This document shows, piece by piece, positions 41,461-64,000 of a stretch of 64,000 nt of DNA. A program made the translations under genes and the position numbers. A model generated the notes under the pieces. The model made no database searches. It was not told the origin of the DNA and worked only from the letters and a program-made list of their open reading frames with translations. The DNA lies in assembly GCF_008806975.1 (NCBI RefSeq), contig NZ_CP031728.1, positions 3,369,501 to 3,433,500 of the forward strand. The letters are read 5' to 3'. The DNA is from Cellvibrio sp. KY-GH-1 (lineage in GTDB: Bacteria; Pseudomonadota; Gammaproteobacteria; Pseudomonadales; Cellvibrionaceae). The first letter of the stretch is position 1. Each line of letters starts with the position of its first letter.

Positions 41461-43581
41461 ATGAACACAACCCTGATCGGCCGTTTGCCTGGCAAATGGT
41501 CTGCGCTCGCACTGGGCCTAAGCAGTGCACTCCTCGGTCAAACCGCCTTCGCCCAAGCAACATTACCGGCCACCATTCAGGCGGAAGCCTATAGCCATAT
41601 GAATGGCGTGCAGTTGGAAACCACCAGCGATACCGGTGGCGGCCAAAACGTAGGTTGGATCGATACCAACGACTGGCTCTCCTATGCCAACAACCCGGTC
41701 AATATCCCCACCAGTGGTGCTTATGATGTGGAATACCGGGTAGCGAGCCTGGGCGGTGGCGGCACCATCCGCCTGGAAGAAGCCGGTGGTTCAGCTAATT
41801 ACGGCACCATTAATGTCGCCAGCACCGGTGGCTGGCAGACCTGGACGACCATCAAGCAACGCGTGACCCTGAGTGCCGGCACGCATCGCTTTGGAGTGGC
41901 CGTTCCAGCCGGCGGTTTTAACCTCAACTGGTTCAAAATCGTCCCGGTACAGACCCAAAGCTGGACGCCGCTGCCGCGCGTAAAACAAAGTGGTCACCTG
42001 TGGGTAAATGCGGCAACCAACCAACGTGTAGACCTGCGCGGTACCAATCTGGGCAACTGGTTGATCCAGGAGTTCTGGATGATGGGCGGCATTATGTCCA
42101 CCAACAACGGCGGTATTAACGACCAGTGCACCCTCGAATCGACGCTCGCCCAGCGCTTCGGCAATACCGAAAAAGAGCGCTTGATGAAGGTATTCCGCAG
42201 CAATTACATCACCACCCGCGACTTCGACATGATGAAGGCGATGGGCATGAACGTAATCCGCATTCCCTTCCTTTACAGCTTGATCGAAGACGAATACAAC
42301 CCTTACAACCTGCGCTCAGACGCATGGCAGTATCTGGATTGGGCGATTGATGAAGCCGAAAAACGCGGCATGTACACCATCATCGATCTGCACGGTGCCG
42401 TGGGCGGCCAAGCAGCAGCCTCTGAACAGCACGACGGTTGTATAGGTGCGGCGCAACTCTGGACCAACGCCAACTACTGGGATAGAACCAAGTGGCTGTG
42501 GGACATGATCGCGCAGAAATATCGCGGCCGCTCTGCAGTCGTTGCTTATGACTTGCTCAACGAGCCATGGGGCACTGATGCGACCACGCTTGCCAACCGT
42601 TCTTACGAACTGTTTAACGTAGTGCGCGCGAAAGATCCGGACACCATCATTCTGTTGCCAGGCCACAACTCGGGTATTGATGCCTATGGCAACCCCAACA
42701 GTCGCGGCCTAACCAACGTCTCTACCTGGATGCACTTCTACCCTGGCTTGTGGGGCTGGAATGACACAGCCGCTTACGGCGCTGGCCAAGCCAACATGTA
42801 CGCCAATTGGCTGCACTGCAATCAGAACGGTTCAGGGGAAAGCTGCGACTGGCGCAACAAGATCACCGGAATTTCAACACCCTTCTTAGTGGGTGAATTC
42901 CAGCCATGGACCCTGCTCGGCTCTTACGGCGGCCAAATGACGCGCAAAGCCTACGACATTTACAACAGCTACGGCTGGGCCGCCACCAACTGGGCCTGGA
43001 AAACCACTTCTTCCGGTGGCTCCAACGGCGATACCAGCGGCTGGGCTTGGGGCATGATCACCAACGCCAGCAATGGCGGTGGCATGAGCGGCATCAACGT
43101 AAGCACGGCGAGCGCCGCGCAAATCGAAAGTTGGTTTAAACAATTCAGCACCCAACCCTTAGTGCGCAATGAAAGCATCGCCTATTGGATGAACTGGAAA
43201 GCGCAAACTGGTCAACGCGTCGAAGCAGAAATGTTTAAAGATCACAGCGGCATTCGTATGGAAACCACCACCGATGCCGGCGGCGGTTTTAACGCGGGCA
43301 GCACTGACGATAACGATTGGATGAGCTATCCCATCAACATTCCAACTGCCGGCAACTACACCTTTGAGGTGCGCGTTGCATCGCCCTACAGCGGCGGTAC
43401 TTTGGTGCTGAGCAGAAACGGATCTGACCTGGGTGTGGTAACTGTGCCCAACACCGGCGGCTGGCAAAACTGGCAGACGGTTTCCATCACCGTGAACTTG
43501 CAAGCGGGTCAGCAGGACCTGGCGATCTTCGTGAGAAAGGGCGGTTGGAATATCAACTGGTGGCAGCTCACTAAACAGTAA
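41461..43581 (+). CDS. Secreted GH5 glycoside hydrolase with N- and C-terminal CBM6
   Basis: The ATG at 41461 begins a Sec signal peptide (MNTTLIGRLPGKWSALAL..., ending AFAQA); the frame is open further upstream but not coding. Residues about 30-165 are a CBM6 (QAEAYSHMNGVQLE, TSDTGGGQNVGWI, GFNLNWFKI). Residues about 170-615 are a GH5 barrel with acid/base Glu368 (LNEPWG) and nucleophile Glu479 (VGEFQPW). RGTNLGNWLIQEFWMMGG at the start resembles exo-beta-glucanase-type GH5 enzymes. A second CBM6 (about 585-706) ends NINWWQLTKQ. The substrate is probably a beta-1,3/1,6-glucan, inferred from the GH30 neighbour. Confidence 0.88.
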   Translation: MNTTLIGRLPGKWSALALGLSSALLGQTAFAQATLPATIQAEAYSHMNGVQLETTSDTGGGQNVGWIDTNDWLSYANNPVNIPTSGAYDVEYRVASLGGGGTIRLEEAGGSANYGTINVASTGGWQTWTTIKQRVTLSAGTHRFGVAVPAGGFNLNWFKIVPVQTQSWTPLPRVKQSGHLWVNAATNQRVDLRGTNLGNWLIQEFWMMGGIMSTNNGGINDQCTLESTLAQRFGNTEKERLMKVFRSNYITTRDFDMMKAMGMNVIRIPFLYSLIEDEYNPYNLRSDAWQYLDWAIDEAEKRGMYTIIDLHGAVGGQAAASEQHDGCIGAAQLWTNANYWDRTKWLWDMIAQKYRGRSAVVAYDLLNEPWGTDATTLANRSYELFNVVRAKDPDTIILLPGHNSGIDAYGNPNSRGLTNVSTWMHFYPGLWGWNDTAAYGAGQANMYANWLHCNQNGSGESCDWRNKITGISTPFLVGEFQPWTLLGSYGGQMTRKAYDIYNSYGWAATNWAWKTTSSGGSNGDTSGWAWGMITNASNGGGMSGINVSTASAAQIESWFKQFSTQPLVRNESIAYWMNWKAQTGQRVEAEMFKDHSGIRMETTTDAGGGFNAGSTDDNDWMSYPINIPTAGNYTFEVRVASPYSGGTLVLSRNGSDLGVVTVPNTGGWQNWQTVSITVNLQAGQQDLAIFVRKGGWNINWWQLTKQ

Positions 43582-49141: not shown

Positions 49142-49555
49142 CACCGACAGCAGATGCGCTAGTCACGCTCACGCGACCGTTCCCGTTTGTATTTTGTTCA
49201 AGGGTTCAACACTTGTTGAGTAAATGAACCCCGTAACGGTAATTTCGGCGTTCGAATAAATCATCCGAACCTTTTTGTTTATCCGTTGTGCTCCAATCCG
49301 CGTGCAATCACCACCTGTCCCGTTAGGGAATCGTCCTGCCTTCAAGCACCAAAGGCCGCCAATGGCGAGGACTTTTCTTTCGCCCGGAATCAGGTTCGAG
49401 CAAAACCGGTTCCCATTTTAAGTGACCTCCAAGGTGAACCGGTTCGAGTAAATTTAGTCGGGCGCAGCAGTGCGCCTTTTGGGTAACCATTCAGCGGCAA
49501 TACCGATAAACCCGCTCGCTCTGTGAGCATTATTAATAAATATAAGAGAACCGCT
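49142..49555. promoter_or_regulatory. Regulatory region upstream of the GH5 lipoprotein gene
   Basis: A 414-bp gap with several inverted repeats: GGGTTCA/TGAACCC (49202-49231), GTTCG-N11-CGAAC (49250-49270) followed by CTTTTTG, which could end the kinase transcript, and two AACCGGTT palindromes (49404-49411 and 49437-49444). The downstream end holds AAGAGAA as ribosome binding site before ATG 49556. No ORF above background. Confidence 0.5.
49394..49448. promoter_or_regulatory. Repeated GGTTCGAG and AACCGGTT elements
   Basis: GGTTCGAG occurs at 49393-49400 and at 49441-49448, 48 bp apart, each beside an AACCGGTT palindrome. The same GGTTCGAG core is found upstream of the GH5 gene at 41461. 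Operator for a shared regulator is inferred. Confidence 0.45.
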
Positions 49556-52207
49556 ATGAACCCAAATAACGCACATCCCAACGGCAAGCACCCCAACAGC
49601 AAGCGCCCCATGGGCACGAACAATCCGATCAATCACCCGCTCAAACTCAGTGTGTTAACCCTAAGTCTGCTCGGCCTGGTCGCCTGCGGCGGAGGCAATG
49701 GTGGGGGAAGCAAATCCTCCAGCAGTGTGACCAGCTCGCTGGCGTCATCCAGCGCTCCGGCATCCTCCAGCGCAGCCAGTAGCTCAGTACCACCGGAAGG
49801 GCTCACCATGCTGAAAACCGATGGCAGCAAATGGGTAAAGGCCTCGGGCAATCAAGTACATTTAAAAGGCACCAACCTGGGCAACTGGCTGGTGCAGGAA
49901 TTCTGGATGATGGGTCAGGGCGGCAATGGTGTAAACGACCAATGCACCCTGGAGGCCAAACTCACCGAACGTTTTGGTTACGACGAAAAAGAGCGCCTGA
50001 TCAAACTCTTCCGCGACAACTGGATTAAGGAGCGCGATTGGGATCAGTTGCAGGCCTTCGGATTTAACATCGTGCGCCTGCCCATTTTGTGGAATGTGAT
50101 AGAAGACGAGAAGAATCCCAAGACCCTGCGCGCCGATGCATGGCATTACCTTGATTGGTCTATTGCCGAAGCGAAAAAACGCGGTATTTATGTGATCCTG
50201 GATTTGCACGGCGCACTCGGCGGCCAAACCCCCAACGATCACACCGGCTGCTCTGGTCAAAATAAATATTGGACCACCCCGGAATACCAGGAACGCACCA
50301 AATGGTTGTGGGAACAAATCGCCACCCGCTACAAAGACGAGCCTGTTGTTGCCGCCTACGACCCACTCAACGAGCCCTGGGGTTCAACCGCGGAAGATAT
50401 GGCAGCGCGCGTAACGGAACTCTACGACGTCATTCGCAAGATCGATAGCAAACACATCGTGATGCTACCCAGTCACTACGGCAATATCGAGGTCTATGGT
50501 GATCCAGTTGCCAAAGGCATGACCAACGTCGCCTTTGAATTGCACCCCTACCCTGGTTTGTTCGGAGACAGACCGGGCGACAGCCACTACGACGTGCATC
50601 GCGATTGGTTGAAGTGCGGACAAACCGGTACCGGCGGCGTCTGCGATTGGGATAAAAAAATCTCCGCACTCAAAACACCGATGTTGATGGGGGAATTTCA
50701 ACCCTGGCAATCGGCCGGTTTGGAATTGGGTGGAAAAATTGGCCGCGCCACTTACGATATTTTTGCGGGTTACAACTGGGCATCCACCAGTTGGGCGTAC
50801 AAGCTAGTGAGCGTTGCCGGCGGGCAAGGCAAAGGCACCTGGGGTATGGTGACCAACGAAATCAACACCAACCTCGACACAGGTGTAGGTTTAATCACCA
50901 AAGCCAGTACCTGGGATTGCGCCAATTGGAATTCCACCTTCGCCAATGCCTGCGCGAAAAAAGCGGGCGTGATTACCGCCAATGGCACCGGCAGTAAAAA
51001 TTATTATCTGGTGATTAAAACCGGTGCTAACAGCGGTGCAAATCCCGATGTGACGTACGACAGCATCAGCCTGAAAAATAACACGACTAACGAAGAAGTA
51101 TTGGTCAATGGTGGATTCGGAAGTGGCAGCGGCTGGACTGAACTAACCATCAGCGGCTCACTGAATGTCGATTACAACAACAGCGATACGAGCAAGCAAC
51201 CCACCGGTGGTGCAGGCGCGGCTCTGCGTATCAGCCGGCCAGCGGGTGTCACCGGAGAAATCAACGGTGCTGTATATCAGCAAATTACTCTGCAAGCGGG
51301 CCAAAGCTACACCTTCAGCGGTACATTTAAAGATAACGGCAGCGTGAACACCTGGGCCGAAATCTATTTAATTGAAGATGCACCTGTCGCCGGTAAAGAT
51401 GTGGTTGATAACGCAGGTAAAGTGGATTTCACCACGGCACCGCTCGCCGATATCGAAAAATTATTTAAGAGTTACGGCGATGTCGGTTACGACGTTCATT
51501 CAGGTCTGGCCAAATGGTTAGTTACCAACGAGCATAACGATGTGTTTGATTACCCGGCCAAACCGGCAGGCCTTACCCTGACGCAATCCGGAACCGATGT
51601 TGCACTCAGCTGGAATGCCGTTGCAGGTATTGATATTACTTACAACGTCTATCGCTCCACCGTGGCCGGAGTAAAAGGCACATTACTCGGTGAAAACCTC
51701 ACAGCCAGCATTTTTGCTGATTCCGGTATTAGTGAAGAAGAAACCTACTACTACTCGGTCACTGCCAAAAATAAAATTGCCGAAGGTTATGCGAGTAATC
51801 CAGCCAATACTAAACTGTTATTTGTACCGGTACCGGCAAAAATTGAAGCGGAAAAGTACACGGGTATGAGCGGCATCCAATTGGAGAACTCTTCCGATAC
51901 TGGTGGCGGCCAAAACGTCGGACATTTTGACGCGGGCGACTTTATTGAGTTCAAAATCAAAACCGAAACGGCGGGCAACTACAGCATTGATTACCGCCTC
52001 GCCACGCAAACAGGCAGCACAGGTTTTGAAGTGTTGATTGATGATGTGGTAGTGGACACCCGCAGTGTCGATGCTACCGGCGGCTGGCAAACCTGGGTTA
52101 CCAAAAGCAGCAACACATTCGCACTAAGCGCTGGCAACCATACATTGCGTTTCCGCTCCGTTGGCAAGGAGTGGAATATCAATTGGTTTGAAATTAAAAA
52201 GCAATAA
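49556..52207 (+). CDS. Lipoprotein GH5 glycoside hydrolase with internal beta-sandwich insertion, FN3 and CBM6
   Basis: The ATG at 49556 (after AAGAGAA) begins a lipoprotein signal with lipobox LVAC (Cys44) and a poly-Ser linker (about 53-80), a Cellvibrio trait. The GH5 barrel has KGTNLGNWLVQEFWMMGQ, acid/base Glu273 (LNEPWG) and nucleophile Glu380 (MGEFQPW). Between about residues 452 and 625 a CBM4/9-like beta-sandwich (EEVLVNGGFGSGSGWTE, ITLQAGQSYTFSGTF) interrupts the barrel before its last helix (PLADIEKLFKSYGDVGYDVH), which matches AAQIESWFKQFS in the paralogue at 41461. An FN3-like domain (about 660-750) and a CBM6 (about 755-883) end the protein. It is a surface-anchored glucanase of the same type as the 41461 enzyme. 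Confidence 0.85.
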   Translation: MNPNNAHPNGKHPNSKRPMGTNNPINHPLKLSVLTLSLLGLVACGGGNGGGSKSSSSVTSSLASSSAPASSSAASSSVPPEGLTMLKTDGSKWVKASGNQVHLKGTNLGNWLVQEFWMMGQGGNGVNDQCTLEAKLTERFGYDEKERLIKLFRDNWIKERDWDQLQAFGFNIVRLPILWNVIEDEKNPKTLRADAWHYLDWSIAEAKKRGIYVILDLHGALGGQTPNDHTGCSGQNKYWTTPEYQERTKWLWEQIATRYKDEPVVAAYDPLNEPWGSTAEDMAARVTELYDVIRKIDSKHIVMLPSHYGNIEVYGDPVAKGMTNVAFELHPYPGLFGDRPGDSHYDVHRDWLKCGQTGTGGVCDWDKKISALKTPMLMGEFQPWQSAGLELGGKIGRATYDIFAGYNWASTSWAYKLVSVAGGQGKGTWGMVTNEINTNLDTGVGLITKASTWDCANWNSTFANACAKKAGVITANGTGSKNYYLVIKTGANSGANPDVTYDSISLKNNTTNEEVLVNGGFGSGSGWTELTISGSLNVDYNNSDTSKQPTGGAGAALRISRPAGVTGEINGAVYQQITLQAGQSYTFSGTFKDNGSVNTWAEIYLIEDAPVAGKDVVDNAGKVDFTTAPLADIEKLFKSYGDVGYDVHSGLAKWLVTNEHNDVFDYPAKPAGLTLTQSGTDVALSWNAVAGIDITYNVYRSTVAGVKGTLLGENLTASIFADSGISEEETYYYSVTAKNKIAEGYASNPANTKLLFVPVPAKIEAEKYTGMSGIQLENSSDTGGGQNVGHFDAGDFIEFKIKTETAGNYSIDYRLATQTGSTGFEVLIDDVVVDTRSVDATGGWQTWVTKSSNTFALSAGNHTLRFRSVGKEWNINWFEIKKQ

Positions 52208-52377: not shown

Positions 52378-53808
52378 ATGCAAAGACATTTAAAACACTG
52401 GCTGCTCGCTACCGCGATAGCCAGTTCTAGCTTCTACTCACTCGCCGCCGACAAACAAGTCAGCGTTTACACCACCGCCAAGGATTCCAACCTGCGCCTT
52501 AGCCTGAGCGATACACTAAGCCTGAAACCCGCGCAGCAATATCCGGAAACGGATATTGCTGTTATTGTAAACCCAGACATTCGCTATCAAAAGTTTATTG
52601 GTATTGGTGGCGCAGTGACCGATGCCAGCGCCGAAGTGTTTGCTAAATTAAATCGCAAAAAGCAGAATGAATTTCTGCAAGCCTATTACAACAGTGACAA
52701 AGGTATTGGCTACACCCTGTTGCGCACCACTATTCACAGTTCAGATTTCAGCAGCGGTAGCTACACCTATATCAAGGAAGGCGATAAAGAATTAACAAGC
52801 TTCAGCATTGATCACGATCGCAAATACCGTTTACCGCTGATTAAGAAAGTACTCAAAGCGGCGGGCGGCGAAATCACGACTTATGTAAGTCCCTGGTCTG
52901 CCCCTGCATTTATGAAAGACACCAACAACATGTTGCGCGGCGGAAAATTATTGCCCGAATACAATGCCGCTTGGGCGCTTTACTACACCAAATTTATTAA
53001 AGCCTACGAAAAAGAAGGCGTTCCTATTTGGGGCCTTACCGTGCAAAACGAACCCATGGCCAAACAAACCTGGGAGTCAATGATTTACACAGCGGAAGAC
53101 GAACGAGATTTCTTAAAGAATCACTTGGGTCCAACCTTAAAAAATGAAGGTCTGGGCGATAAAAAAATTATTGTCTGGGACCACAACCGCGATTTAATTA
53201 GCCATCGCGCCCACACCATCATGAGCGACCCGGAAGCCGCAAAATACGTGTGGGGTATTGGTTTCCACTGGTATGAAACCTGGACCGGTGGCCAGCCCAT
53301 GTACAAAAACGTCGCCGACGTAGGCAAGGCTTACCCGAATGTAAATTTAATGCTCACCGAAGCTACGGTAGAAAAATTTAATCCGGAACGTTACCAATAC
53401 TGGCCCAACGGAGAACGCTATGGCGATTCTTTAATTAACGATTTTAATGCGGGAGCGGTAGCTTGGACTGACTGGAATATTTTGCTGGATGACAAAGGCG
53501 GCCCCAACCACGTTGGCAACTTCTGCTTTTCACCCATCCACGCCGACGCTAAAGGGGAATTAATTTATACCCCCAGTTACTATTATCTGGGGCATTTCTC
53601 CAAATTTATTAAGCCTTCTGCCCAGCGAGTCAGCGCAGTTGCCAGCCGCAGTGTGTTACAAACCACATCATTTATCAATCAAGATAACAAACTCGCTACT
53701 GTAGTCATGAACAATAGTGATGCCGCAGTTTCCTACCGTTATTACATCGGCACACTTGAAACAAACGTTACTATTCCCGCCCACGCGATTCAAACGCTTG
53801 TTTACTAA
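52378..53808 (+). CDS. Secreted GH30 glycoside hydrolase
   Basis: The 476-residue protein has a Sec signal (MQRHLKHWLLATAIASSSFYSLAA) and the GH30 pattern of a TIM barrel and beta-sandwich: IGIGGAVTDASAEVF, TYVSPWSAPAFMKD, acid/base Glu225 in TVQNEPMAK, nucleophile Glu328 in MLTEATVE, and a beta-sandwich to the end. Residue pattern is nearer to the glucosylceramidase/beta-1,6-glucanase subfamilies than to GH30 xylanases. It follows the GH5 gene by 170 bp on the same strand, so the pair probably handles a beta-glucan such as fungal cell wall. Confidence 0.88.
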   Translation: MQRHLKHWLLATAIASSSFYSLAADKQVSVYTTAKDSNLRLSLSDTLSLKPAQQYPETDIAVIVNPDIRYQKFIGIGGAVTDASAEVFAKLNRKKQNEFLQAYYNSDKGIGYTLLRTTIHSSDFSSGSYTYIKEGDKELTSFSIDHDRKYRLPLIKKVLKAAGGEITTYVSPWSAPAFMKDTNNMLRGGKLLPEYNAAWALYYTKFIKAYEKEGVPIWGLTVQNEPMAKQTWESMIYTAEDERDFLKNHLGPTLKNEGLGDKKIIVWDHNRDLISHRAHTIMSDPEAAKYVWGIGFHWYETWTGGQPMYKNVADVGKAYPNVNLMLTEATVEKFNPERYQYWPNGERYGDSLINDFNAGAVAWTDWNILLDDKGGPNHVGNFCFSPIHADAKGELIYTPSYYYLGHFSKFIKPSAQRVSAVASRSVLQTTSFINQDNKLATVVMNNSDAAVSYRYYIGTLETNVTIPAHAIQTLVY

Positions 53809-53892: not shown

Positions 53893-54234
53893 TTATGCAC
53901 ATTTCTTCTTCTGCTTTTCCGTTTCAATGGCGTTTACTTCGCCTTTCCAATTTGCAACTTCTTTTTCATAATCACCGGTAACCTTACTCAGCGGCACTAT
54001 TGACAATATCAACAACCAAGCATCGGTATTGGCAGCAGAATTCTGCTTTTCTGTAGCAACGGCAAGTTCAGATTGCGCTTTTTTCAACTCAGAATCAAGC
54101 AGGGAACACTCGTGCGATTGATACTTATCTTGCGGCAAAGTTGTTGCTGCGATTTTATCCGGACGAGTTGCACATGAAGCAAGCCCCATTAAAACTATCA
54201 TCGGAATAACTTTTAATACTTTAGGACAAATCAT
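53893..54234 (-). CDS. Small lipoprotein with coiled-coil, unknown function
   Basis: A 113-residue protein with a signal peptide and lipobox LASC (cysteine near residue 22). The rest is charged and helical with heptad-like Leu/Glu/Lys patterns (ECSLLDSELKKAQSELAVATE) and a second cysteine at the C-terminus (KKCA). The family is not recognisable to me. It stands alone between the GH30 gene and the biosynthetic cluster. Confidence 0.7.
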   Translation of the reverse strand: MICPKVLKVIPMIVLMGLASCATRPDKIAATTLPQDKYQSHECSLLDSELKKAQSELAVATEKQNSAANTDAWLLILSIVPLSKVTGDYEKEVANWKGEVNAIETEKQKKKCA

Positions 54235-54371: not shown

Positions 54372-55253
54372 CTAGGCAACTTGTCGATTTAATTCAGAAT
54401 CCAAACTCAAGTGTGTCAATTTAATCGAATCAATCAACTTCGTTAGTACGTTGCCAGGGCCGACTTCTTTGAATTCAAACGCACCTTGATCCAACAAATA
54501 GTAAACAGTATCCAACCACCGGACAGAGTTTGTAATTTGATCGCCAAGGTAAAATTTAAGGCTATCGCTGGTATGTGGGCGTGCAGTCACATTAGAAATT
54601 ACAGGCGCACCCATTGGACAAAAGGTGAAATTATCCAAAAAAGCCTCAAACTCTTTCTTGGCATCGTTCATATACCGTGAGTGAAACGCAGCACTAACTG
54701 GTAACACAATATAACGAGCCTTGTTGCGTTCAAACACTTTAGCTGCCGCGTTAATTTCTGCCAAGTCTCCCGACAACACCGTTTGAGTACCTGAATTAAA
54801 ATTGGCGACATCAATATTAATAAAATTACTGTCGCGCAGAATGTTATTAATTTCCTGAACGGATATCCCCAATACAGCTGCCATGCCACCACTATTTGCC
54901 CTTCCCATGAGCTCGCCTCTTTTTTTAACTAGTTTCAAACCAGTCTCAAAGTCAAATGCACCTGCCGCAAAAAGCGCGTTGTATTCCCCCAAGCTGTGTC
55001 CGGCCAAATAGTCTGCTTTACGACTAGAGTCTTCATAACACTTGAGATAACTCAGCGCTGAAACAACATAAATAGCAGGCTGGGTAAATTGTGTCTTATT
55101 GAGTTGATTCTGAGGATCATCTACGCACAATTCTCTTAACGAATAACCTAAAACACTATCAGCGACATCACTGAGCGTTTTAAAATCGTCAAACAACTCT
55201 TTTCCCATACCTTTAAATTGCGATCCTTGTCCTGGAAAAACATAAGTTAACAT
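54372..55253 (-). CDS. Free-standing malonyl-type acyltransferase of a trans-AT system
   Basis: A 293-residue FabD-like acyltransferase: FPGQGSQ at the N-terminus, nucleophile Ser in AGHSLGEYNALFA, Arg in KKRGELMGRANSGGM (the residue that anchors the malonyl carboxylate), and catalytic His in SAAFHSRYM. It loads malonyl-CoA onto carrier proteins. A free-standing AT next to a second AT and an NRPS gene indicates a trans-AT polyketide assembly line. Its start overlaps the stop of the neighbouring AT by 7 bp. Confidence 0.85.
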   Translation of the reverse strand: MLTYVFPGQGSQFKGMGKELFDDFKTLSDVADSVLGYSLRELCVDDPQNQLNKTQFTQPAIYVVSALSYLKCYEDSSRKADYLAGHSLGEYNALFAAGAFDFETGLKLVKKRGELMGRANSGGMAAVLGISVQEINNILRDSNFINIDVANFNSGTQTVLSGDLAEINAAAKVFERNKARYIVLPVSAAFHSRYMNDAKKEFEAFLDNFTFCPMGAPVISNVTARPHTSDSLKFYLGDQITNSVRWLDTVYYLLDQGAFEFKEVGPGNVLTKLIDSIKLTHLSLDSELNRQVA

Positions 55254-56233
55254 TTAGCAACTCCTTTAAACGTCATTGATGGATTTAAACTATTTATACA
55301 TGTTTCGTAATTACTAACACTTCGCCCCATGGGGGACATAATTGAAAAGATGCTGTGGTATGCTTCTCGTGGCAGGCTGTACTTAACAAAATTTGCGAGC
55401 GACCCAGAGGGGCCAACGTCCACATAAGTCATATCGCGGTCCGGAATCAAGCCTTGCATCGTTTGATAAAACAATATGGGATTTCGCTTAACACGCCACA
55501 TGTGCAACGCATTATAATTATCATTATTTGTAGCCGACATGGCCGACACTATCTCAGTTGTACTCTCCTTAAATTTTAAGCCAGAAAATATACTAATAAA
55601 TCTTTCGCGCAGAGGCTCAAGATGTGCGCTATGAAATGGCTGACGTAAAGGAAGCCGTTCATATACAACATTACCATCCTTCAGCTTTTTCTCAGCAATA
55701 TCGAGCGCCGCCTGCTTTGCAGATATACAAATCAACTGCGGCATATTTACTGCCGCCAACTCACAACCAGAAAACACGTCAGGATGTGAATAAAAGTAAT
55801 CAACTCCTTTTAATACAGCTATCATCCCTCCATCAGAACACTCGCGCTCAATTAAATTTGCCTGTTTGATTAAAGTATCTAACATATCCTCTGGCGAAAC
55901 GACACCTCCAACTGCCATGGACACGCACTCACCCAGGCTCAACCCTATTAAACGCGACGGACGGACACCATCCTCCATCAACGATTGAGCAAGAGCGTAC
56001 TGAATTACAAACAGCGCGGGATGCGAATAACGTAGCTCATCAAACCTATCGGCCGGAGACATATTTGTGTCATACAATACTTCTATAAGCGAATAGCCTG
56101 TCCTGGACTTAAACACCCGATCAAGCAAATCAACGTTTGCTTTAAAAACTGGCAATTTCATATAGAGCTCACGGCCCATTTGATAGTATTGCGATCCTTG
56201 ACCAGAAAACAAAAACGTAATCTTGCTGCTCAT
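55247..56233 (-). CDS. Second free-standing acyltransferase-like protein, probably an acyl hydrolase
   Basis: A 328-residue AT homologue: FLFSGQGSQYYQMG, GLSLGECVSMAVGG with the Ser nucleophile but Leu in place of the His before it, and catalytic His in PFHSAHLEPL. The position aligned with the malonate-binding Arg is LIKQANLIERE (Ala/Asn in place of Arg), so malonyl binding is unlikely. In trans-AT clusters such a second AT often removes stalled acyl chains from carrier proteins (acyl hydrolase, PedC type). Co-transcribed with the AT at 54372. Confidence 0.8.
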   Translation of the reverse strand: MSSKITFLFSGQGSQYYQMGRELYMKLPVFKANVDLLDRVFKSRTGYSLIEVLYDTNMSPADRFDELRYSHPALFVIQYALAQSLMEDGVRPSRLIGLSLGECVSMAVGGVVSPEDMLDTLIKQANLIERECSDGGMIAVLKGVDYFYSHPDVFSGCELAAVNMPQLICISAKQAALDIAEKKLKDGNVVYERLPLRQPFHSAHLEPLRERFISIFSGLKFKESTTEIVSAMSATNNDNYNALHMWRVKRNPILFYQTMQGLIPDRDMTYVDVGPSGSLANFVKYSLPREAYHSIFSIMSPMGRSVSNYETCINSLNPSMTFKGVAKC

Positions 56234-56261
56234 AACATTAATAATCCTTCAACTAAAAAAA

Positions 56262-57419
56262 TTAAACGATGATATCGCTTAAGGGTAATCTTACTGATTT
56301 TTCACACAATTCCGCCTTGCCCATCCTAAAAACCATCAACAGCTCATCTGTCTTGGGAATCCGAAACTGTTCTTTAAATTTATTCGCGTATTCTTGTTGC
56401 TCGGAAACGTAGTTAATTGCCTGCATTCGATAATTTTGTCGCGTCGCATCCAGAAAGATGCGCTCAAACAACTGCCCGGATTGCAACCTTGAAGCATTGC
56501 TAACGTCGCTCGCTGTGATTACACCCCACAACGGAGTAGCTGCGAAAAGATTTTTCATCAAATCTATTTCACCCTGCCTACCAAAATCTCCCGCCATATC
56601 TTCCGGTGACACGCCGTATTGAAAATATTGTTTGATTGCAGAAGGAGCGGCCGATGTGAAAATCGAAATGCCATCCCGCTTTTTAAGAATTTCTTCCCGC
56701 GAGTAACGCCACCATTTCAAACTATCGAGATAGGCTGAATCATCTTTCGTAAAGGCCACACACGCGGCGTCGTTAATTTCAGCCATTGCAGCGAGATCCG
56801 CTGAATCGTCAAACCAGCGCAGAGATATATTTGAAAAATCATTAAGTCCCATCATCGATGACTTGATAATCTCAGGTGTAGGCTCTGCAAGATAAGGTGA
56901 ACGGGTCGTTTGTCGCTTGAAGATTGAATCGAAGAGGGGGTTTCCCTGAGGCTGATCTTCCGACACCAAACTTACTTTGGCGCACATCCCGGTTTTTTCA
57001 TATTCAGCATTGGGGGTTAACGAAATATCCGCACGATATCCCAATTGATTGGCCGCCACCCTAATATTTTCCAACGCGCAACCAACCGACATCTGTATCA
57101 ATCTATGCTCCGCATCGGCACTGCCAAGACTTCGATTGGAATCCGCAAACACACTAATTTCCTTTTCCTTGATCGAAAACTTCCACGGCTGGGTATTGTG
57201 TGCACTGGGAGCCAATGACCCACACAGAATCAGATAGTTTTCGAGATTTAAACTACCCTGTGTAAATTTATTCCAGTACAAATAGGCGGGATCAGAGTAA
57301 TTAACAGCACCGCCCTCTTCACAAAATAGATACAAACCCACAGCTGATGTACCTACTCCAGCAAGGGTCAACTTTAAAAAATTTCTGCGTGTTATGATAT
57401 TTCCTTTAGGCGCGTTCAT
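56262..57419 (-). CDS. Tat-exported nitroreductase-family protein (Acg-like)
   Basis: The 385-residue protein has a Tat signal (ITRRNFLKLTLAGVGTSAV) and then two nitroreductase-like halves: SLAPSAHNTQPWKFSI and ENIRVAANQLGYRAD in the first, YRMQAINYVSEQQEY and RMGKAELCEKS in the second. Acg/Rv2032-type proteins have this tandem layout and bind FMN. In the cluster it may oxidise or reduce the product outside the cytoplasm, or act in self-protection. Confidence 0.78.
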   Translation of the reverse strand: MNAPKGNIITRRNFLKLTLAGVGTSAVGLYLFCEEGGAVNYSDPAYLYWNKFTQGSLNLENYLILCGSLAPSAHNTQPWKFSIKEKEISVFADSNRSLGSADAEHRLIQMSVGCALENIRVAANQLGYRADISLTPNAEYEKTGMCAKVSLVSEDQPQGNPLFDSIFKRQTTRSPYLAEPTPEIIKSSMMGLNDFSNISLRWFDDSADLAAMAEINDAACVAFTKDDSAYLDSLKWWRYSREEILKKRDGISIFTSAAPSAIKQYFQYGVSPEDMAGDFGRQGEIDLMKNLFAATPLWGVITASDVSNASRLQSGQLFERIFLDATRQNYRMQAINYVSEQQEYANKFKEQFRIPKTDELLMVFRMGKAELCEKSVRLPLSDIIV

Positions 57420-57428
57420 GTTTTTAAC

Positions 57429-58610
57429 CTATTTATTTACCGGGAGCTGAAAACGGTTTGAAGATGTGACCATCATGTTGATTGCCTGACACAACAGCAG
57501 AATGATGATTAGACTGAAGATATGTTTGTCACCCAATACAGACATAAACAGGGAGGCAATAAAAGGTCCGGCAGCGCAGCCGTAACTGAACGACGCAGTG
57601 AACAGAGCGCTACCTGTCGGCATTTCTGGTTTCGACAATTGATTCCCAATCATCGCAAGCGTTATCGGAAAAAACGTTCCTACGCTTAATCCCAATAAAA
57701 CTGCACCCACTGCAATCACGTGATCGTAATCAATTGTGAGCATGAGGAATAATGTGGCAATTCCAACTAGCGCCGATATCAGCAATATTTTCCAATGCCC
57801 ATACCTATCCCCAAAATAGGAAACAGGAATCATTCCCACCCCAGATGCGATCATAAATAACGGCAAGGGCAAAGAAGATATTTCTACTGGCAGGGATTGA
57901 TTGATTAAATATACGGGCAACAAGGTAACCACAATGCCTTCAAGTGCGCCGTATATAAACACCCCAAATAAAGCTATCTGCACCTTTTTAAATACAGTAA
58001 AAAAATTAATGTATTTTTCAACCGGTATGGTTTTATTGAGCGCAAACACAACAAAAACACCAAAAGAAATAACGCAGCTACCAAATACAAAGGCGTACTG
58101 CGGATAATGTGCATATAGGAATGATCCAATCAGCGGGCTGACAATAAACCCAACGCCAAACGCGGCGCCGTGCATAGCAACAATTACTCCTCGCTTCTTT
58201 GAGTTTGCATATAGGTTCAAGCCAGTTTGTCCTGCAACCATGTACAAGCAAATACCAACGCCCATTAAGATCCGCAAAATAAACCAGGTTGCAACACTAT
58301 CCGTTCGAGGGAACATGGCAGTAGCAATGGCGGTGATAAAAATCCCCGCAAAAATTACCCAATGAATACCGAAACGACGAATCAAAGCGCCTGCAAATGG
58401 TGAAAATAGTGCAATAGACAAGTAATAAACACTTGCATTCGCGCCAATCATCACTTCACTAACGCCGTGCTGCTTCATCAATATGGATATCAATGGATTA
58501 AAAATTCCCATTGAAAAACCTGACAATAACGAGATGAAATACAACGCAAACAACGGGCTAGAAAACGTTTTTTCTGTATCCCTCATAATATTCGTAGCCA
58601 TAATCATCAT
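57429..58610 (-). CDS. MFS exporter
   Basis: A 393-residue permease with about 12 hydrophobic segments, the RRFG loop motif between TM2 and TM3 (GALIRRFGIHWVIFAG) and a matching C-terminal motif (SYFGDRYGHWKILL). It is probably a drug:H+ antiporter-type exporter for the cluster product. It lies 9 bp before the nitroreductase gene and 4 bp after the barrel gene, so all are on one transcript. Confidence 0.85.
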   Translation of the reverse strand: MMIMATNIMRDTEKTFSSPLFALYFISLLSGFSMGIFNPLISILMKQHGVSEVMIGANASVYYLSIALFSPFAGALIRRFGIHWVIFAGIFITAIATAMFPRTDSVATWFILRILMGVGICLYMVAGQTGLNLYANSKKRGVIVAMHGAAFGVGFIVSPLIGSFLYAHYPQYAFVFGSCVISFGVFVVFALNKTIPVEKYINFFTVFKKVQIALFGVFIYGALEGIVVTLLPVYLINQSLPVEISSLPLPLFMIASGVGMIPVSYFGDRYGHWKILLISALVGIATLFLMLTIDYDHVIAVGAVLLGLSVGTFFPITLAMIGNQLSKPEMPTGSALFTASFSYGCAAGPFIASLFMSVLGDKHIFSLIIILLLCQAINMMVTSSNRFQLPVNK

Positions 58611-58614
58611 TTCC

Positions 58615-59949
58615 CTAAAATGACACTTTCACGCCAACGGAGAATCTATCTACCTCGTCGTAATCGTAATAATAGGCCCCCTTCTTTGCCCCCTCGATCC
58701 CACTTAGCGCGATAAAGAACTTTACGTCATCATCGTAGCTATAGGAGACATCAACCCTGAAAATATTGGCGTTATCGCTAATTAGATGATTCATCCAAAG
58801 CGAGGCGGAAATATTTCCATTTGAAAATGTGCGAGATATGTAGGTTGATATTTTTCTTTCATACTTGCCCTCCCTTAACATTTCAGTGTGATCTTCTATG
58901 TAGCTTGCAATGTACTCTAATGAAACCTGAGTATCGGAAAAGCCACTGTATTCAATACCGAGCATACCTTTATCCAAGTTTTTTTCTTGAAAGGATATGA
59001 CAGAGTCTATTGGCTCTGTTTGTAACTGCGGCACCACATACTCAACAACTTTTACATCGTGAGGCATGTTTAACGTACGCGCAAAATCATATTTCAACTG
59101 CCACGAGCCTTCGATTAAGTTGCCAAAAAAACCGTAGGAATTAAGCTGGTTATACTCTGGCTGGAACACCAACTGTTGGGTACTTGCATTCACCCCTTTA
59201 AAGACCAATAGCGGAAAGCCTTCAAATTGGCGGGCGGCAAAAAAGCTGATGTCTCCCCAATCATTTGACATATACAACCTGCTCAGCACTCCCGTGTTAT
59301 CAAGATCTGAGTCAGGCTCATCGGCCGACAAAATCATAACGCGTTCGCGAAAGGCCAAAAACGGATCAAACTCTGAACCTTCCGCACCCAGTTCATCCAC
59401 TCGAGCCTCGTGAACTGCAATAAGGTTGTATTCCCATGACGCGTTGTACACAGTTAACTTAGTCGCCCCGACAGGGAGTCGAATATCCTTAACATTCTGT
59501 AAGCCCAGTTCGCGCAGATCGCGGGGATTGCCGATATCACTTATTTGCTCGCTATTACTTTCGCCCCACCCAAAAAACTGACGTCCAAAGCGAACGTTCA
59601 ACCAGGAGTTGATATCTATATCGGTATAAGCCTCATTAATACGAAAGTCTTTCTCATAGATATCCAGAGTGTCTTGCGAGAACTCGCCGCGCCCTTCTAA
59701 TTTGTACGCCGCATCATAGGTTCCTTGGAAATTTAACTTCGCACTCCAGGACGATGAAAAATATGCATCTACATTTAAATTTGCTGTGGAGCTTATTTTT
59801 GACCACTTAAACTCCTCGTGCTGATAGCTATTACCTACCTCTTCTACTAAAAATCCACTGTAGGAAAGTGCGGTGTCATCCGCGCTAACAAGAGGCGCAA
59901 TTACAAAAAGCAGGGCGCCGACAGAAAAATTTTTACTTCGAAAGATCAT
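58615..59949 (-). CDS. Outer-membrane beta-barrel protein (DUF1302-like)
   Basis: The 444-residue protein has a signal peptide (VGALLFVIAPLVSA) and alternating amphipathic strands to a C-terminal aromatic end (FSVGVKVSF), as expected for an outer-membrane barrel. GRQFFGWGESNSEQISDI and NPRDLRELG are typical of the DUF1302 family, whose members are found beside LolA-like proteins. It overlaps the start of the LolA-like gene by 4 bp, and is probably the outer-membrane part of an export or lipid-transfer route. Confidence 0.78.
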   Translation of the reverse strand: MIFRSKNFSVGALLFVIAPLVSADDTALSYSGFLVEEVGNSYQHEEFKWSKISSTANLNVDAYFSSSWSAKLNFQGTYDAAYKLEGRGEFSQDTLDIYEKDFRINEAYTDIDINSWLNVRFGRQFFGWGESNSEQISDIGNPRDLRELGLQNVKDIRLPVGATKLTVYNASWEYNLIAVHEARVDELGAEGSEFDPFLAFRERVMILSADEPDSDLDNTGVLSRLYMSNDWGDISFFAARQFEGFPLLVFKGVNASTQQLVFQPEYNQLNSYGFFGNLIEGSWQLKYDFARTLNMPHDVKVVEYVVPQLQTEPIDSVISFQEKNLDKGMLGIEYSGFSDTQVSLEYIASYIEDHTEMLREGKYERKISTYISRTFSNGNISASLWMNHLISDNANIFRVDVSYSYDDDVKFFIALSGIEGAKKGAYYYDYDEVDRFSVGVKVSF

Positions 59950-60785
59950 TTAGCAATGCCTCGCGACATTTTTAATGGCGTGAAATTGGCATCATCAACA
60001 TCTTCCTCGTAGCGCACATTCTCAATTTTTATTACGGTCGAGTGTTCAGTAGCCCCCCCTTTAGTGGTGGTAATTTTATTTACCTTGGCCGTCCAAATGT
60101 CATTAATCTTCTCAACTTCCTTCGCTTCGAAATATTTTACCCTTTTCCCTTTCACGACCCAGAAAGTACCTTTTACCTTAATAAAGTTATCCTTTCTAAC
60201 CCAGAGGTGGATTTTGTTATACCCTGTTTCCTTAATGACCTTATCGTCATCTCCATTTTTTGGCAGTCCCTCAAGGACCCAGCAATCATGTCCATCAATC
60301 ACTTCACTTGTTTTAATGATTGAATAATCCCAATAGTTATTGCGCGAAGTCTTTATATCAGCATAGGTAAAATCGCTTCCCAGAAATGGATCCGATTGGT
60401 CTGCCGCCGCTAGTCGCTTTACTTTTTTAAGCGCCGGCAAGTACAGCCAAGAATCATCATCTTTCCCCTCCTCAATCCAGTCAAAACTCAAGTAACTCGT
60501 ATCTTTAATATCTTCAGGATAATTAAAGAAATATATTGCTTTCTGATCCTTCAGATTTTCCCCGAAATTTTTCCTAATCATACTCATTCGTCTAACTCGT
60601 TCTTTTCCATCTGAGTTAATCATAATCATCGTTGAGTCAGACTTTTGCGTTTTACCTATATACCGATCCTCGGACGTAGCAACGATATCATTGCCAGACA
60701 TTTGTTCCGCAGTAGCGGCTTGCTGCACCGCAAAAAAACACATAAAACCCAGCATTCCGCCTTTGAATAACTTTTTCATTTCCAC
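59946..60785 (-). CDS. Periplasmic LolA-like outer-membrane lipoprotein-sorting protein
   Basis: A 279-residue protein with a signal peptide (GMLGFMCFFAVQQAATA). The mature part has the LolA-type beta-barrel motifs MIMINSDGKERVRRM, DWIEEGKDDDSWLYLPALKK and LAAADQSDPFLGSDFTYADI (conserved GSDFTYAD). GTG 60785 has AAGG 8 bp upstream; ATG 60779 two codons later is the alternative. With the DUF1302-like barrel it may carry a lipophilic product across the periplasm. Confidence 0.85.
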   Translation of the reverse strand: MEMKKLFKGGMLGFMCFFAVQQAATAEQMSGNDIVATSEDRYIGKTQKSDSTMIMINSDGKERVRRMSMIRKNFGENLKDQKAIYFFNYPEDIKDTSYLSFDWIEEGKDDDSWLYLPALKKVKRLAAADQSDPFLGSDFTYADIKTSRNNYWDYSIIKTSEVIDGHDCWVLEGLPKNGDDDKVIKETGYNKIHLWVRKDNFIKVKGTFWVVKGKRVKYFEAKEVEKINDIWTAKVNKITTTKGGATEHSTVIKIENVRYEEDVDDANFTPLKMSRGIAK

Positions 60786-60833
60786 GATAGAGACCTTAAT
60801 TTGTTAATTGTGAAAGCCAATTTCATTCATTTG

Positions 60834-63800
60834 TTAGTCTACGGAGGTGGTTGTAGTCGCTTTAACTTCGGCGACCAAGTCTCTCAAAATAGACTGATAT
60901 TGCACGCCAACTTCCTCTATTGTTTGTGATGTATAGAAATTGTTGGAGTAGGATATTTCAAGATAAGTTACTTTATTTTTGGTATAGAAGAAGAACTCCA
61001 CCAAACTGGTTCGCTTTTGATCAGCAAACGATAACCGTTGATTTAATTCCTTTTCATTTGCGTAGAAGTCTTCACTTTCCACAGCGGTCACATCACCCAA
61101 ATAATTTATTCGAATGTTTGTCAGCTTATGATCAGGATACATATCTTTGGGAAGCGCAGCGGACACCCAGTCATAACTGGCACCACTCATCGGCATATCA
61201 GCCAGACCGTTCTTAATTGCATTGATCGCAACACCAAGCCGATCCTGCTTTTTAATGCTGATAGTGAGCGGGGCATTAACAGCGAAATTTCCAACACAAC
61301 TAAAGTAGTTTTTGGTTGGGCCGCCAACATTTCGAGCATTTAGCTTGTGGCTGATAGCTATCTGCGGACGTTTGAGTATGTTCGCCATCAATTTGTAAAC
61401 GGGTGCGCACAACAACGAATAGAAATTACACTCATAGTGTTCGCATGCATTTCGCTGCAGGAAATCCACGGCATTTTTTTCTAAAGGCACAACCAATCGC
61501 GCATCAGAACTCTCTATGTTTTCTCCACCACGATAATCATAGGGAATTTCCACACATTTCTTGATTCCACCTAGCTGCTTCTTCCAGTAGCTCAGGAGGT
61601 TTGTGTACTCAGATGAATCTGCTGCGAATGCCGATTGAAGCTCCTCTACATAACCGGGATAGGAAGCCGACGAGGCAAATATAGACTGATCATAGGCGGA
61701 TTTATTAATCAGGCTCGCGTACACAGACCATAGCTGCCGGCTCAGCAACTGCCCAGAGACCAGGTCGGACACTAAGTGATGGGCAACCCACAATATCTTG
61801 CTCGACCCATCTGCCAAGCTAACTACCGCAAATTTACACAACGGCCATTGATCAACTCGCAGACTTTCCGCCATTGCATAGGCGAGCTCCTGAATGGATT
61901 CAGCCAATTCGTCGCCACTTAATGTGGTTTGATGGTGAATCACTTCAAGCCCCGGACAATGTGAATGAATTTTCTGAACCCAGGCTCCGTTTTCCTGACC
62001 GAACACGGTTCGCAATTCCGCATGTTTTTCCACTAATACGTTCACAGCCGCTTGGAAACTGTCGATATGCAGGACCTTACGATAATGAAGCTGACTGATG
62101 CCGAACCATTTAAAAGGCGCATCGAAATAAGAGAAAATCCAATTTTGTGCAGGCCCAACCGGAAGCACTTTCTCAATCACAGGCACTGCTGTCGATTCAG
62201 ATTTCTTTTCTGAATTAGCCGTCAATTGGTTCAGAAGCACTTTCCGATCGAGTTTTCCGTTGCTATTTTTCGGCAACGCACTGTCTGACCAGAAGATAAA
62301 ATGGGGCACCATGTAATCCGGACAGCGCTCGTTGATAAACGACTTAATCTCTGCTTCGGCGGTTTGCGCTCCCGCGTACCACATGATCAACTTATCAGTA
62401 CCGCCCTGATTAACAAGCAACACCGCCGCTTCATTAATGTTTTTGTGGCTGGACGCGATATTTTCTATCTCACCCAGCTCAACCCGGAAACCGCGAATTT
62501 TTACCTGACTATCAATACGGCCATGATAGTTAAACGAACCATCTTCGTTTTCCGTTGCAAGGTCTCCCGTTCTGTACAGAGTAGCTCCGGGAACTGAGGC
62601 AAACTTGTTGGCAATAAATGCCTTAGCGGTCAATTGCGGTTCATACAGATATTCTTTGGCAACCTGGATACCACCAATGCATAACTCGCCCATTTCACCC
62701 GGCTTAACTTGATTACCATCTTGATCGATAATTACCAGAGAAACGTTGTCAATCGCCTTTCCAATCGGGATAGGAACTGCATCCCCGGGACGCTCACTAA
62801 TAACGTGATAAGTAACATCGATAGACGCTTCGGTAGGACCATATAAATTGCACAACCCTACATTTAATTGATAGGCATCTATCCATTGCTGAACGGTATT
62901 GGTAGCCAGAGCTTCACCAGAGAATGCCAGCCAACGCAAGGATTTAAATTGGTGTTTATCCGTATCAATATTGGAAATAAAAGCACCAAACATCGACGGG
63001 ACAAAATGAGCAATATTAATTGACTCCGCTTCAAGCCAATCCGCAAATTCCCAAGGGTTCGATACAGTGTCTTTCTCCACCGCGCTTACGATGCCGCCGA
63101 ACATCAGCGGCCAAAACAATTCCCACAAAGAAACATCAAAACAGCAAGATGTCTTCTGGGCAACTTTTTCGCCCGGACGCAATTGGAATAGTTTCTGATG
63201 CCATTCAAGACGATTGTTGTAACCTTCATGATTCAACACTACGCCTTTTGGATTACCGGTAGAGCCAGAGGTAAATAGGACTACCATGTTATCCCGTGGA
63301 TCTATGGATTGTTCTAGTCGCTCGCCGGGTTGAGTGATCCAAGTGGATGCAGGTACAACATTTTTGACAATTTTTCCAAAACTTTCGCATTGCACCTGAT
63401 TCGCATCGCCCAACAATACAATCGATTCAAGTACCGTGCCTTCGGTTCTATTTGCTCTATCCGCTGGAAACAAATCATCGAGTACGTCAAGCAGCGCAGG
63501 ATCTGTCACCAACGTTTTAATCCGCGCGTGCTTTAAAATGTAGCTCATTCTTCCTGCAGGATAGGTTGGGTCGATAGGCACATAGGCTGCACCGGATTTT
63601 AAAATCGCCAGTATCCCCACCAGCATTAAAGGTCCGCGGTTGGAAATAACGCCTACAAAATCGCCGGTGCTAATCCCCTGTTCTTTTAGCACGCGAGCGA
63701 TCTTATTGGATTGAGTGTCCAACTCTCGATACGAGATGGATTGCCCCTGCTGATTAGTAACGGCTACCGCATCCGGTGTTACTTGAGCCTGATGCACGAT

Positions 63801-64000
63801 GCGTTCAATCGGGGTGAGAAATGATTCGTCACAGCTCACTCTCGTTTCTGCGACTGCCACCGACTTGCTCAACACAGTAGCGGGCGTTGCTTGTGCACTA
63901 ATGATTGACGCGCTGCGTTGGATGGCCGCAATCATTTCGCTTAAACTACGACACTTGATTAATGCAGAGCGATTGATAGTTTTATTCCAGGTATACAGCT
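60834..64000 (-). CDS. Non-ribosomal peptide synthetase with adenylation and condensation domains, continuing past the right edge
   Basis: The frame is open from the right edge (residues before Met 63935 read ...RSLSEMIAAIQRS), so the visible ATG is probably internal. Counted from 63935: an adenylation domain (about 45-575) with FTSGSTGNPKGV, FDVSLWELFW, LYGPTEASID, YRTGDL and NSNGKLDRK, then directly a condensation domain (about 590-1030) with the active HHLVSDL motif near 718. Reading the substrate-pocket residues by eye gives D-V-W-H-A-S-L-I-D-K, close to serine codes. No carrier-protein motif (GGHS) is present between the two domains. Carrier protein must act in trans or lie outside the window. 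Confidence 0.88.
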   Translation of the reverse strand, partial: LYTWNKTINRSALIKCRSLSEMIAAIQRSASIISAQATPATVLSKSVAVAETRVSCDESFLTPIERIVHQAQVTPDAVAVTNQQGQSISYRELDTQSNKIARVLKEQGISTGDFVGVISNRGPLMLVGILAILKSGAAYVPIDPTYPAGRMSYILKHARIKTLVTDPALLDVLDDLFPADRANRTEGTVLESIVLLGDANQVQCESFGKIVKNVVPASTWITQPGERLEQSIDPRDNMVVLFTSGSTGNPKGVVLNHEGYNNRLEWHQKLFQLRPGEKVAQKTSCCFDVSLWELFWPLMFGGIVSAVEKDTVSNPWEFADWLEAESINIAHFVPSMFGAFISNIDTDKHQFKSLRWLAFSGEALATNTVQQWIDAYQLNVGLCNLYGPTEASIDVTYHVISERPGDAVPIPIGKAIDNVSLVIIDQDGNQVKPGEMGELCIGGIQVAKEYLYEPQLTAKAFIANKFASVPGATLYRTGDLATENEDGSFNYHGRIDSQVKIRGFRVELGEIENIASSHKNINEAAVLLVNQGGTDKLIMWYAGAQTAEAEIKSFINERCPDYMVPHFIFWSDSALPKNSNGKLDRKVLLNQLTANSEKKSESTAVPVIEKVLPVGPAQNWIFSYFDAPFKWFGISQLHYRKVLHIDSFQAAVNVLVEKHAELRTVFGQENGAWVQKIHSHCPGLEVIHHQTTLSGDELAESIQELAYAMAESLRVDQWPLCKFAVVSLADGSSKILWVAHHLVSDLVSGQLLSRQLWSVYASLINKSAYDQSIFASSASYPGYVEELQSAFAADSSEYTNLLSYWKKQLGGIKKCVEIPYDYRGGENIESSDARLVVPLEKNAVDFLQRNACEHYECNFYSLLCAPVYKLMANILKRPQIAISHKLNARNVGGPTKNYFSCVGNFAVNAPLTISIKKQDRLGVAINAIKNGLADMPMSGASYDWVSAALPKDMYPDHKLTNIRINYLGDVTAVESEDFYANEKELNQRLSFADQKRTSLVEFFFYTKNKVTYLEISYSNNFYTSQTIEEVGVQYQSILRDLVAEVKATTTTSVD

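Follow-up and report, generated by a model that had tools for sequence, protein, structure and literature searches.

A trans-AT polyketide synthase/nonribosomal peptide synthetase operon of Cellvibrio sp. KY-GH-1 that ends in a predicted serine-activating cassette with an epimerase-like terminal domain

The right end of a 64,000-nucleotide stretch of Cellvibrio sp. KY-GH-1 DNA (hereafter the window; NZ_CP031728.1, C1 3369501-3433500 of a 5.76-Mb single-contig genome) carries seven genes that look like the end of a biosynthetic cluster combining polyketide synthase (PKS) and nonribosomal peptide synthetase (NRPS) functions. This raises the questions of which assembly line they belong to, how its chain is finished, and how a product might leave the cell. 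We find that the locus is a real, intact-looking trans-AT PKS/NRPS operon, for whose family we found no product. What sets the operon apart from other such clusters is its terminal cassette, which has the order ACP-C1-PCP-A(Ser)-E* (acyl carrier protein, a condensation domain, peptidyl carrier protein, an adenylation domain predicted to use serine, and a terminal epimerase-like domain that we call E*). As judged from sequence, the two megasynthases of the operon probably make a polyketide, join serine to it, process the conjugate with a likely non-epimerizing E* and pass it to a likely envelope-spanning exporter.

The terminal cassette and its epimerase-like domain

By Pfam and motif scans, the megasynthase P0001 reads KS-KR-ACP-KS-ACP-C1-PCP-A(Ser)-E* and its upstream partner P0002 (2953 amino acids, aa) reads KS-DH-KR-ACP-ACP-KS-DH-ACP-ACP (KS, ketosynthase; KR, ketoreductase; DH, dehydratase). 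All four KS domains retain the active-site cysteine and the two histidines, DH1 reads DGALQ and DH2 DGALR, and a RhiE-like KS linker (PF22336) is present in the megasynthases. Since Pfam finds no acyltransferase (AT) domain (PF00698) inside either megasynthase, the line is trans-AT by architecture, and with a free AT encoded alongside, the trans-AT hybrid composition proposed in the initial annotation, made from the sequence alone, holds. That annotation had also listed P0001 as an NRPS; NRPS domains are present, but they belong to a PKS/NRPS protein of 3598 aa whose C-terminal part lies in the window and whose last domain is nearer to epimerization (E) than to condensation (C) domains. Pfam called five carriers (four in P0002 and one in P0001); two further carriers of P0001, the ACP ahead of C1 and the PCP ahead of the A domain, were recognized by motif and alignment alone. 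This PCP stands ahead of the A domain, and no carrier follows the A domain in P0001. A carrier directly ahead of the A domain is called by Pfam itself in the related proteins of Shouchella (PCP 582-645, A from 664) and genome G026 (PCP 625-691, A from 743).

The cassette was compared across 87 aligned protein tails (G000, which is the window's genome, L019, G133, G026, P0006-P0076 and P0090-P0101; redundancy was kept, and G133 and P0100 are near copies). Among rows with a residue at the site, 85/85 have the ACP serine, 86/86 the PCP serine and 85/85 the His and Asp of C1. At the positions that we take to set A-domain specificity, the rows read D, I/V, W, H, variable, S, L, I, D, K, with each position except the variable one conserved in 85-87 of the 87, and we take this to match the code for serine. 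The best product-specific NCBIfam models over the A domain were SolG (348.4 bits) and EntF (334.5 bits), the latter a serine enzyme, both scoring under their whole-protein cut-offs. SolG is described as a serine enzyme in the excerpted text of PMC10204066.

Pfam labels E* a plain condensation domain, and the products of this cluster family would therefore be mispredicted. When the single E* sequence was compared with solved structures, TycA was matched over residues 6-438 (76 bits), with HHLVVDG, LEGHGRE and NYLG in the aligned stretch, while PvdL was matched through HHLVVDG and LEGHGRE, with 64.9 bits for its E stretch and 5.7 bits for its C stretch. A four-row E* profile gave ten top chains at 154.6-235.4 bits, including bacitracin synthase 3, PvdL, tyrocidine synthases and gramicidin S synthase 1, with the next chain at 90.5 bits. 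By these sequence comparisons, E* is closer to epimerization than to condensation domains. The glutamate of the E-domain motif LEGHGR, which Stachelhaus and Walsh reportedly found to be catalytic in 2000, is nonetheless replaced in all 87 E* rows (R in 73, K in 14), with an invariant Ser-His just before it. The His, His and Asp of HHxxxD and the Asn-Tyr pair are also invariant in all 87 rows, none of which keeps the Gly of HHxxxDG (V in 33, L in 31, M in 15, I in 8). As a control, the glutamate was kept in 22 of 24 domains scoring at least 110 bits over more than 300 residues, drawn from 18 canonical NRPS proteins of the same homolog searches; the exceptions lie in P0104 and P0081. Within the 90 residues ahead of E*, a carrier motif occurs in none of the rows (0/87). 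From its sequence, E* likely does not epimerize.

Both C-superfamily domains of the cassette form groups of their own. A tree was built from 64 domains, namely 18 of the 87 E*, 15 of the 73 C1, 18 of the 23 E and all 13 C domains at hand, and each group formed one clade with full bootstrap-tree support. C1 is, by sequence, a second separate clade. A hidden Markov model (HMM) of C1 scored at least 414 bits in 73 of 75 family rows, the two low rows (74 and 78 bits) holding little or no C1 sequence, against at most 77.5 bits over 124 domain hits in canonical NRPSs. The E* HMM scored at least 440 bits in 75/75 family rows against at most 194 over 96 hits in canonical NRPSs, and the in-family scores of both models are inflated because they were built from the same family rows that they score. 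The proteins end within 11 residues of E* in 22 of the 87 rows, the window's protein included, and continue for another 90-324 residues in the other 65.

The cassette is spread over Bacillota, cyanobacteria, Pseudomonadota and others. A search with the Shouchella E* returned 83 proteins at E <= 1e-30, 71 of them with at least 311 bits before a drop to 213, and the named carriers are Clostridium, Paenibacillus, Bacillus cytotoxicus and other Bacillota, Nostoc, Stigonema, Merismopedia, Methylocaldum, a Desulfobacterales metagenome-assembled genome (MAG) and Pendulispora. With P0001 as query, 19 proteins were found, including 12 full-length relatives of 3370-3717 aa, the window's own among them. 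In the Bacillota genomes G888 (Shouchella) and G904, the cassette, with a fused short-chain dehydrogenase/reductase (SDR), lies beside a PKS that starts with an AMP-binding domain and a major facilitator superfamily (MFS) transporter related to that of the window (30% identity in Shouchella, 28% in G904). The Shouchella locus also has nearby an MMPL-like gene, recognized by eye, and a gene resembling the operon's acyl-hydrolase-like (AH) protein (32%). A KR-less KS/ACP step precedes C1 in P0001 and its G133 ortholog; in Shouchella it is split over two proteins, the PKS ending in a KS with no ACP after it and the partner protein starting with an ACP, and the 10451-aa PKS of G026 has a KS near its end that fits such a step. 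The recurrence of this step predicts a beta-ketoacyl-serine. The G026 protein after the cassette (L045:6087-10265) combines a half-length C domain with an A domain and a pyridoxal phosphate-dependent decarboxylase domain.

Even so widely spread, the cassette is rare. An A-E* query at 1e-90 found it in 4/144 genomes of the family and 1/369 of the class, own genome counted, and a ten-row cassette profile at 1e-150 hit 10/398 genomes of the phylum, with the whole cassette only in G000 and G806 and the A domain only in the other eight. For Shouchella, itself counted, the figures at 1e-200 were 2/41 genomes of its family and 1/299 of its phylum. These absences are soft, because only 2-11 candidates were scored per genome. 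We found no description of the cassette in the open PMC literature when searching by domain order, terminal condensation domains in trans-AT systems or Clostridium, Clostridium hybrids, and tetramate or Dieckmann chemistry. We tentatively propose, at somewhat less than even confidence, that the cassette is an undescribed type of NRPS module with swapped A domain and carrier, whose epimerase scaffold, with Arg/Lys in place of Glu beside Ser-His, would have become a new catalyst for cyclizing or dehydrating a beta-ketoacyl-serine, and which serves across phyla as a terminator for polyketide chains. If catalytic, E* would add a new member to the C-domain superfamily, with a chemistry that is testable on a single tri-domain protein.

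Candidate roles of E*

In the scheme that we propose, the A domain would load serine back onto the upstream PCP, C1 would couple the seryl-PCP with the beta-ketoacyl chain coming from the last, KR-less PKS module, and E* would act on the resulting acyl-seryl-PCP. Pfam finds no thioesterase (TE), reductase or other named release domain on P0001 or P0002. The role that we prefer for E*, as one possibility and a rather uncertain one, is chain termination, its His-His-Asp site helping the beta-ketoacyl-serine to cyclize off the PCP as a 5-hydroxymethyl tetramate. Several observations weigh against this scheme. Without iteration, the four modules would yield a short chain. An SDR follows E* in 64 of the 87 rows (from precomputed Pfam lists and lengths), and in G026 the cassette is followed by an NRPS-like gene with a partial C domain, so that E* need not end the chain there. 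The tree is compatible with E* being sister either to E or to C domains, without fixing the order of C, E and E*, and an AlphaFold model of E* from a three-row alignment reached a pLDDT of 38.9 and was left unused. P0002 has no visible loading module, a KS being its first domain. In the solanimycin line, SolA too has a KS as its first domain, and iteration has been proposed for it; by analogy, the first module of P0002 may be iterative.

Three other roles for E* appear unlikely to a similar degree. The first is that of a dehydratase: E* would abstract the alpha proton of the PCP-bound serine and eliminate its hydroxyl to leave dehydroalanine, with another enzyme, such as the AH-like protein, releasing the chain. 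The E scaffold handles the alpha proton of a PCP-bound residue, which together with the strict serine code and the kept His-His-Asp and Asn-Tyr residues would suit a dehydratase, and C-superfamily domains are discussed as serine dehydratases in the excerpted text of PMC10204066. The loss of the alpha-proton-site glutamate in 87/87 rows speaks against this role, however, and we found no precedent for an E-type dehydratase, which makes it an improbable reading.

The same invariant His-His-Asp, Asn and Tyr, and the fact that the closest solved relatives are E domains, would also be expected of an epimerase that still gives D-serine with a re-tooled acid/base pair. We regard this as doubtful in view of the Glu to Arg/Lys replacement and the missing Gly of HHxxxDG in every row, the absence of a carrier directly before E* and the lack of a full downstream C domain among the operon's genes.

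Thirdly, E* could be a non-catalytic platform to which a partner enzyme binds, comparable to the X domain of glycopeptide NRPSs. X domains, described as C-superfamily docking domains with an altered HHxxxDG in the excerpted text of PMC11546977 and PMC8949500, offer a precedent, and the SDR fused behind E* in those 64 rows could be such a partner; the invariance of His-His-Asp across all E* rows is in contrast to the altered motif of X domains, and we give this role a low probability. A plain C domain that releases the chain, which is the proposal for lasonolide, was not our first choice since E* scores nearer to E domains. We also considered an aminomalonyl use of the serine A domain, a route taken in zwittermicin and colibactin biosynthesis, and rejected it since no such dehydrogenase genes are among the nine genes of the operon.

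Operon, related loci and a candidate export path

The operon spans window-equivalent positions 54372-83018 (28,647 bp) and has nine genes, the seven in the window (Table 1) plus those for P0002 and an RND/MMPL protein (resistance-nodulation-division type, 782 aa). The initial annotation had the seven genes packed on one strand with overlaps or gaps under 50 bp, and indeed all are on the minus strand, with gaps of -7, 28, 9, 4, -4 and 48 bp. It had placed the core of the cluster right of the window, which is where the two megasynthases and the RND/MMPL gene lie, though this core is small. By its own account the reading would fall if the next 50 kb held no PKS or carrier-protein gene; the first 17 kb hold four KS, two KR, two DH and seven carrier sites. 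The P0001 frame passes the window end to window-equivalent 71630, with a likely ATG at 71588 that gives 3584 aa, the same length as P0089. The P0002 gene stops 1 bp ahead of this ATG, and the RND/MMPL gene lies 218 bp beyond the P0002 gene. Past it, a divergent gene for an Sfp-type phosphopantetheinyl transferase (PPTase; L017:12585-13448, +) adjoins the operon. The cluster is also present in one other genome of the genus, G015, where this PPTase gene has a 70% identical counterpart; weaker matches occur in 4 of the other 19.

Table 1. Features of the operon within the window
Feature	Position	Strand	Evidence
Free-standing malonyl-type AT (FabD)	54372..55253	-	Acyl_transf_1; TIGR00128 333.7 bits vs cut-off 260.9
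Second AT-fold protein, acyl-hydrolase-like (AH)	55247..56233	-	PF00698; FabD model 103.9 bits, below cut-off 260.9
Nitroreductase-family, Acg-like FMN oxidoreductase with Tat-like signal	56262..57419	-	NF047509 194.1 bits, just under cut-off 199
MFS transporter	57429..58610	-	PF07690 148.7 bits
DUF1302 protein, predicted outer-membrane beta barrel	58615..59949	-	PF06980 57 bits, cut-off 23.2
LolA-like periplasmic carrier	59946..60785	-	PF17131 167 bits, cut-off 30, E 4.7e-49
C-terminal part of 3598-aa PKS/NRPS megasynthase P0001	60834..64000	-	Open reading frame and Pfam; AMP-binding and 'Condensation'
E*, terminal epimerase-like domain (Pfam: Condensation)	60846..62183	-	Structure-database sequence matches, profile, alignment
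Adenylation domain, predicted serine	62253..63794	-	PF00501/PF13193; specificity letters D V W H A S L I D K
End of PCP preceding A domain	63951..64000	-	Motif/alignment; serine (GFDSI, residue 2532 motif) just right of window

Most of the smaller genes proved to be what had first been proposed, with Pfam placing the DUF1302, LolA-like and MFS proteins as annotated. The "tandem free-standing ATs" are one true AT, which passes the FabD cut-off, and a second protein that fails it and resembles an acyl hydrolase; its active-site serine motif is GLSLGE, versus GHSLGE in the FabD protein, and its AH role is one that we presume by analogy with trans-AT clusters. The "Tat nitroreductase" belongs to the nitroreductase family and has a Tat-like (twin-arginine translocation) motif, TRRNFLK, visible by eye, but its match to Pfam TAT_signal is below the cut-off. 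Adjoining the operon is a lipoprotein-like open reading frame (ORF) of 113 aa (window 53893-54234; no Pfam family; 85% identity in L019), and beside the PPTase gene is a 342-aa ORF, likewise with no Pfam family (L017:13490-14518, +). To the left of the operon are plant-polymer degradation genes, namely GH5 with CBM6 modules (twice) and a GH30 enzyme (window 41374-43581, 49523-52207 and 52378-53808). The genome also has a second, separate NRPS, a 5021-aa open frame with four A-domain matches (G000:C1:1772229-1787447; L002-L004, L006).

A related locus is found in a second genus (G133, probably the Cellvibrionaceae shipworm isolate 2753L), where the RND/MMPL gene is directly beside those for LolA and DUF1302. 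The relatives lie in a single run with 45% (synthase), 59% (RND), 60% (LolA), 42% (DUF1302), 51% (MFS), 49% (oxidoreductase), 40% (AH) and 60% (AT) identity, and the locus is larger, with three more PKS genes and its own PPTase. On the other strand, adjoining this cluster, are very large ORFs of 2210 aa (PKS-like by BLAST), then 3089, 2006 and 2655+ aa (G133:C2:1925645-1960000; L040, L041), perhaps a second biosynthetic cluster. Closer relatives of the operon genes, with 76-94% identity for the parts present, are on L018 and L019 (JAGKXB010000026.1 and JAGKXD010000047.1), where the contig stops inside the P0002 relative and the RND gene lies outside the sequence seen. L018 and L019 are identical over 22,280 bp yet are filed under Oxalobacteraceae and Cellvibrionaceae MAGs, and G806, placed in another family, has a near-identical cassette (G806:C24). 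The L018/L019 stretch is probably a mis-binned contig that is also carried by G806.

The initial annotation had suggested an envelope-spanning export path from the LolA and DUF1302 genes. The RND/MMPL gene in the same operon and the confident beta-barrel model of the DUF1302 protein fit this idea, for which the cargo and route are our inference. The RND/MMPL protein matches PF03176 with 116.5 bits (cut-off 20.5) and stays below the HAE3 model TIGR00921 (180.5 vs 351.9). The AlphaFold model of the DUF1302 protein has a mean pLDDT of 87.9 and about 18 long strands, and Foldseek matched it to porins, AlgE and OccAB1 at query TM values of about 0.4-0.53, so that we predict a general outer-membrane barrel. 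As the RND/MMPL, LolA-like and barrel genes are kept together in two genera, the simplest reading of these gene contents is a path that would carry a hydrophobic product across the envelope, from the RND/MMPL protein in the inner membrane via the LolA-like carrier in the periplasm to the DUF1302 barrel in the outer membrane. The MFS protein could serve as a second route, and the Tat oxidoreductase might act on the product outside the cytoplasm. It seems quite improbable that these three genes work in general envelope lipid traffic and are neighbours of the cluster only by chance, the MFS protein being the sole exporter: the MFS is the transporter common to both Bacillota clusters, and Gram-positives need no outer-membrane path, but synteny of LolA, DUF1302 and RND with the synthase is kept in two genera, four further contigs, matched up by their equal lengths, appear to hold a megasynthase and a DUF1302 relative together, and among 20 other genomes of the genus a close DUF1302 copy is found solely in the cluster-bearing G015. 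We found no paper on a trans-AT cluster with MMPL and LolA genes, and none joining DUF1302 to MMPL or lipoprotein sorting, in the open PMC literature. The operon offers a compact test case for whether RND, LolA-like carrier and outer-membrane barrel jointly move a natural product out of a Gram-negative cell.

Comparison with known systems

Aryl polyene clusters also have LolA-like and MMPL-type genes, and the present operon resembles them in placing such a carrier and exporter beside a polyketide or fatty acid synthase. Their synthases are type II-like and have no NRPS parts, unlike the megasynthases described here.

A further likeness is to the solanimycin cluster of Dickeya solani (solA-L), a trans-AT PKS whose KS-first first module is proposed to iterate, as far as described in excerpts of PMC9765074 and PMC10204066. 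Both systems have a KS-first trans-AT PKS, an AT-AH pair and a serine-activating NRPS module. According to the same excerpts, SolG is ordered C-A-P, whereas the operon has PCP-A-E*, and solanimycin has its own A-P-C-A-ox-P and C-A-P-C-TE proteins, a P450, an aminotransferase and a MATE exporter. By Pfam, none of the nine operon genes encodes SolF/SolH modules, a P450, an aminotransferase or a TE, and the operon has MFS, RND, LolA and DUF1302 genes instead. Membership of the solanimycin family, suggested by the SolG match, was rejected since this match is confined to the serine A domain and SolG has the order C-A-P.

The families of PKS/NRPS clusters in shipworm isolate 2753L are uncharacterised, and those that it does not share with T. 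turnerae are said to be without close relatives, in the excerpted text of PMC7329324; G133, probably this isolate, holds the syntenic, larger relative of the operon. A terminal C (CT) domain has been proposed for the trans-AT lasonolide line (PMC9600693, in excerpt), and E* resembles it as a C-superfamily domain that comes last with no TE, but scores closer to E domains and comes after an A domain rather than a carrier. Compared with the E domains of TycA and PvdL, E* shares full-length similarity and the HHxxxD and NYLG motifs, and differs in having Arg or Lys for the catalytic-site Glu and no PCP directly ahead of it.

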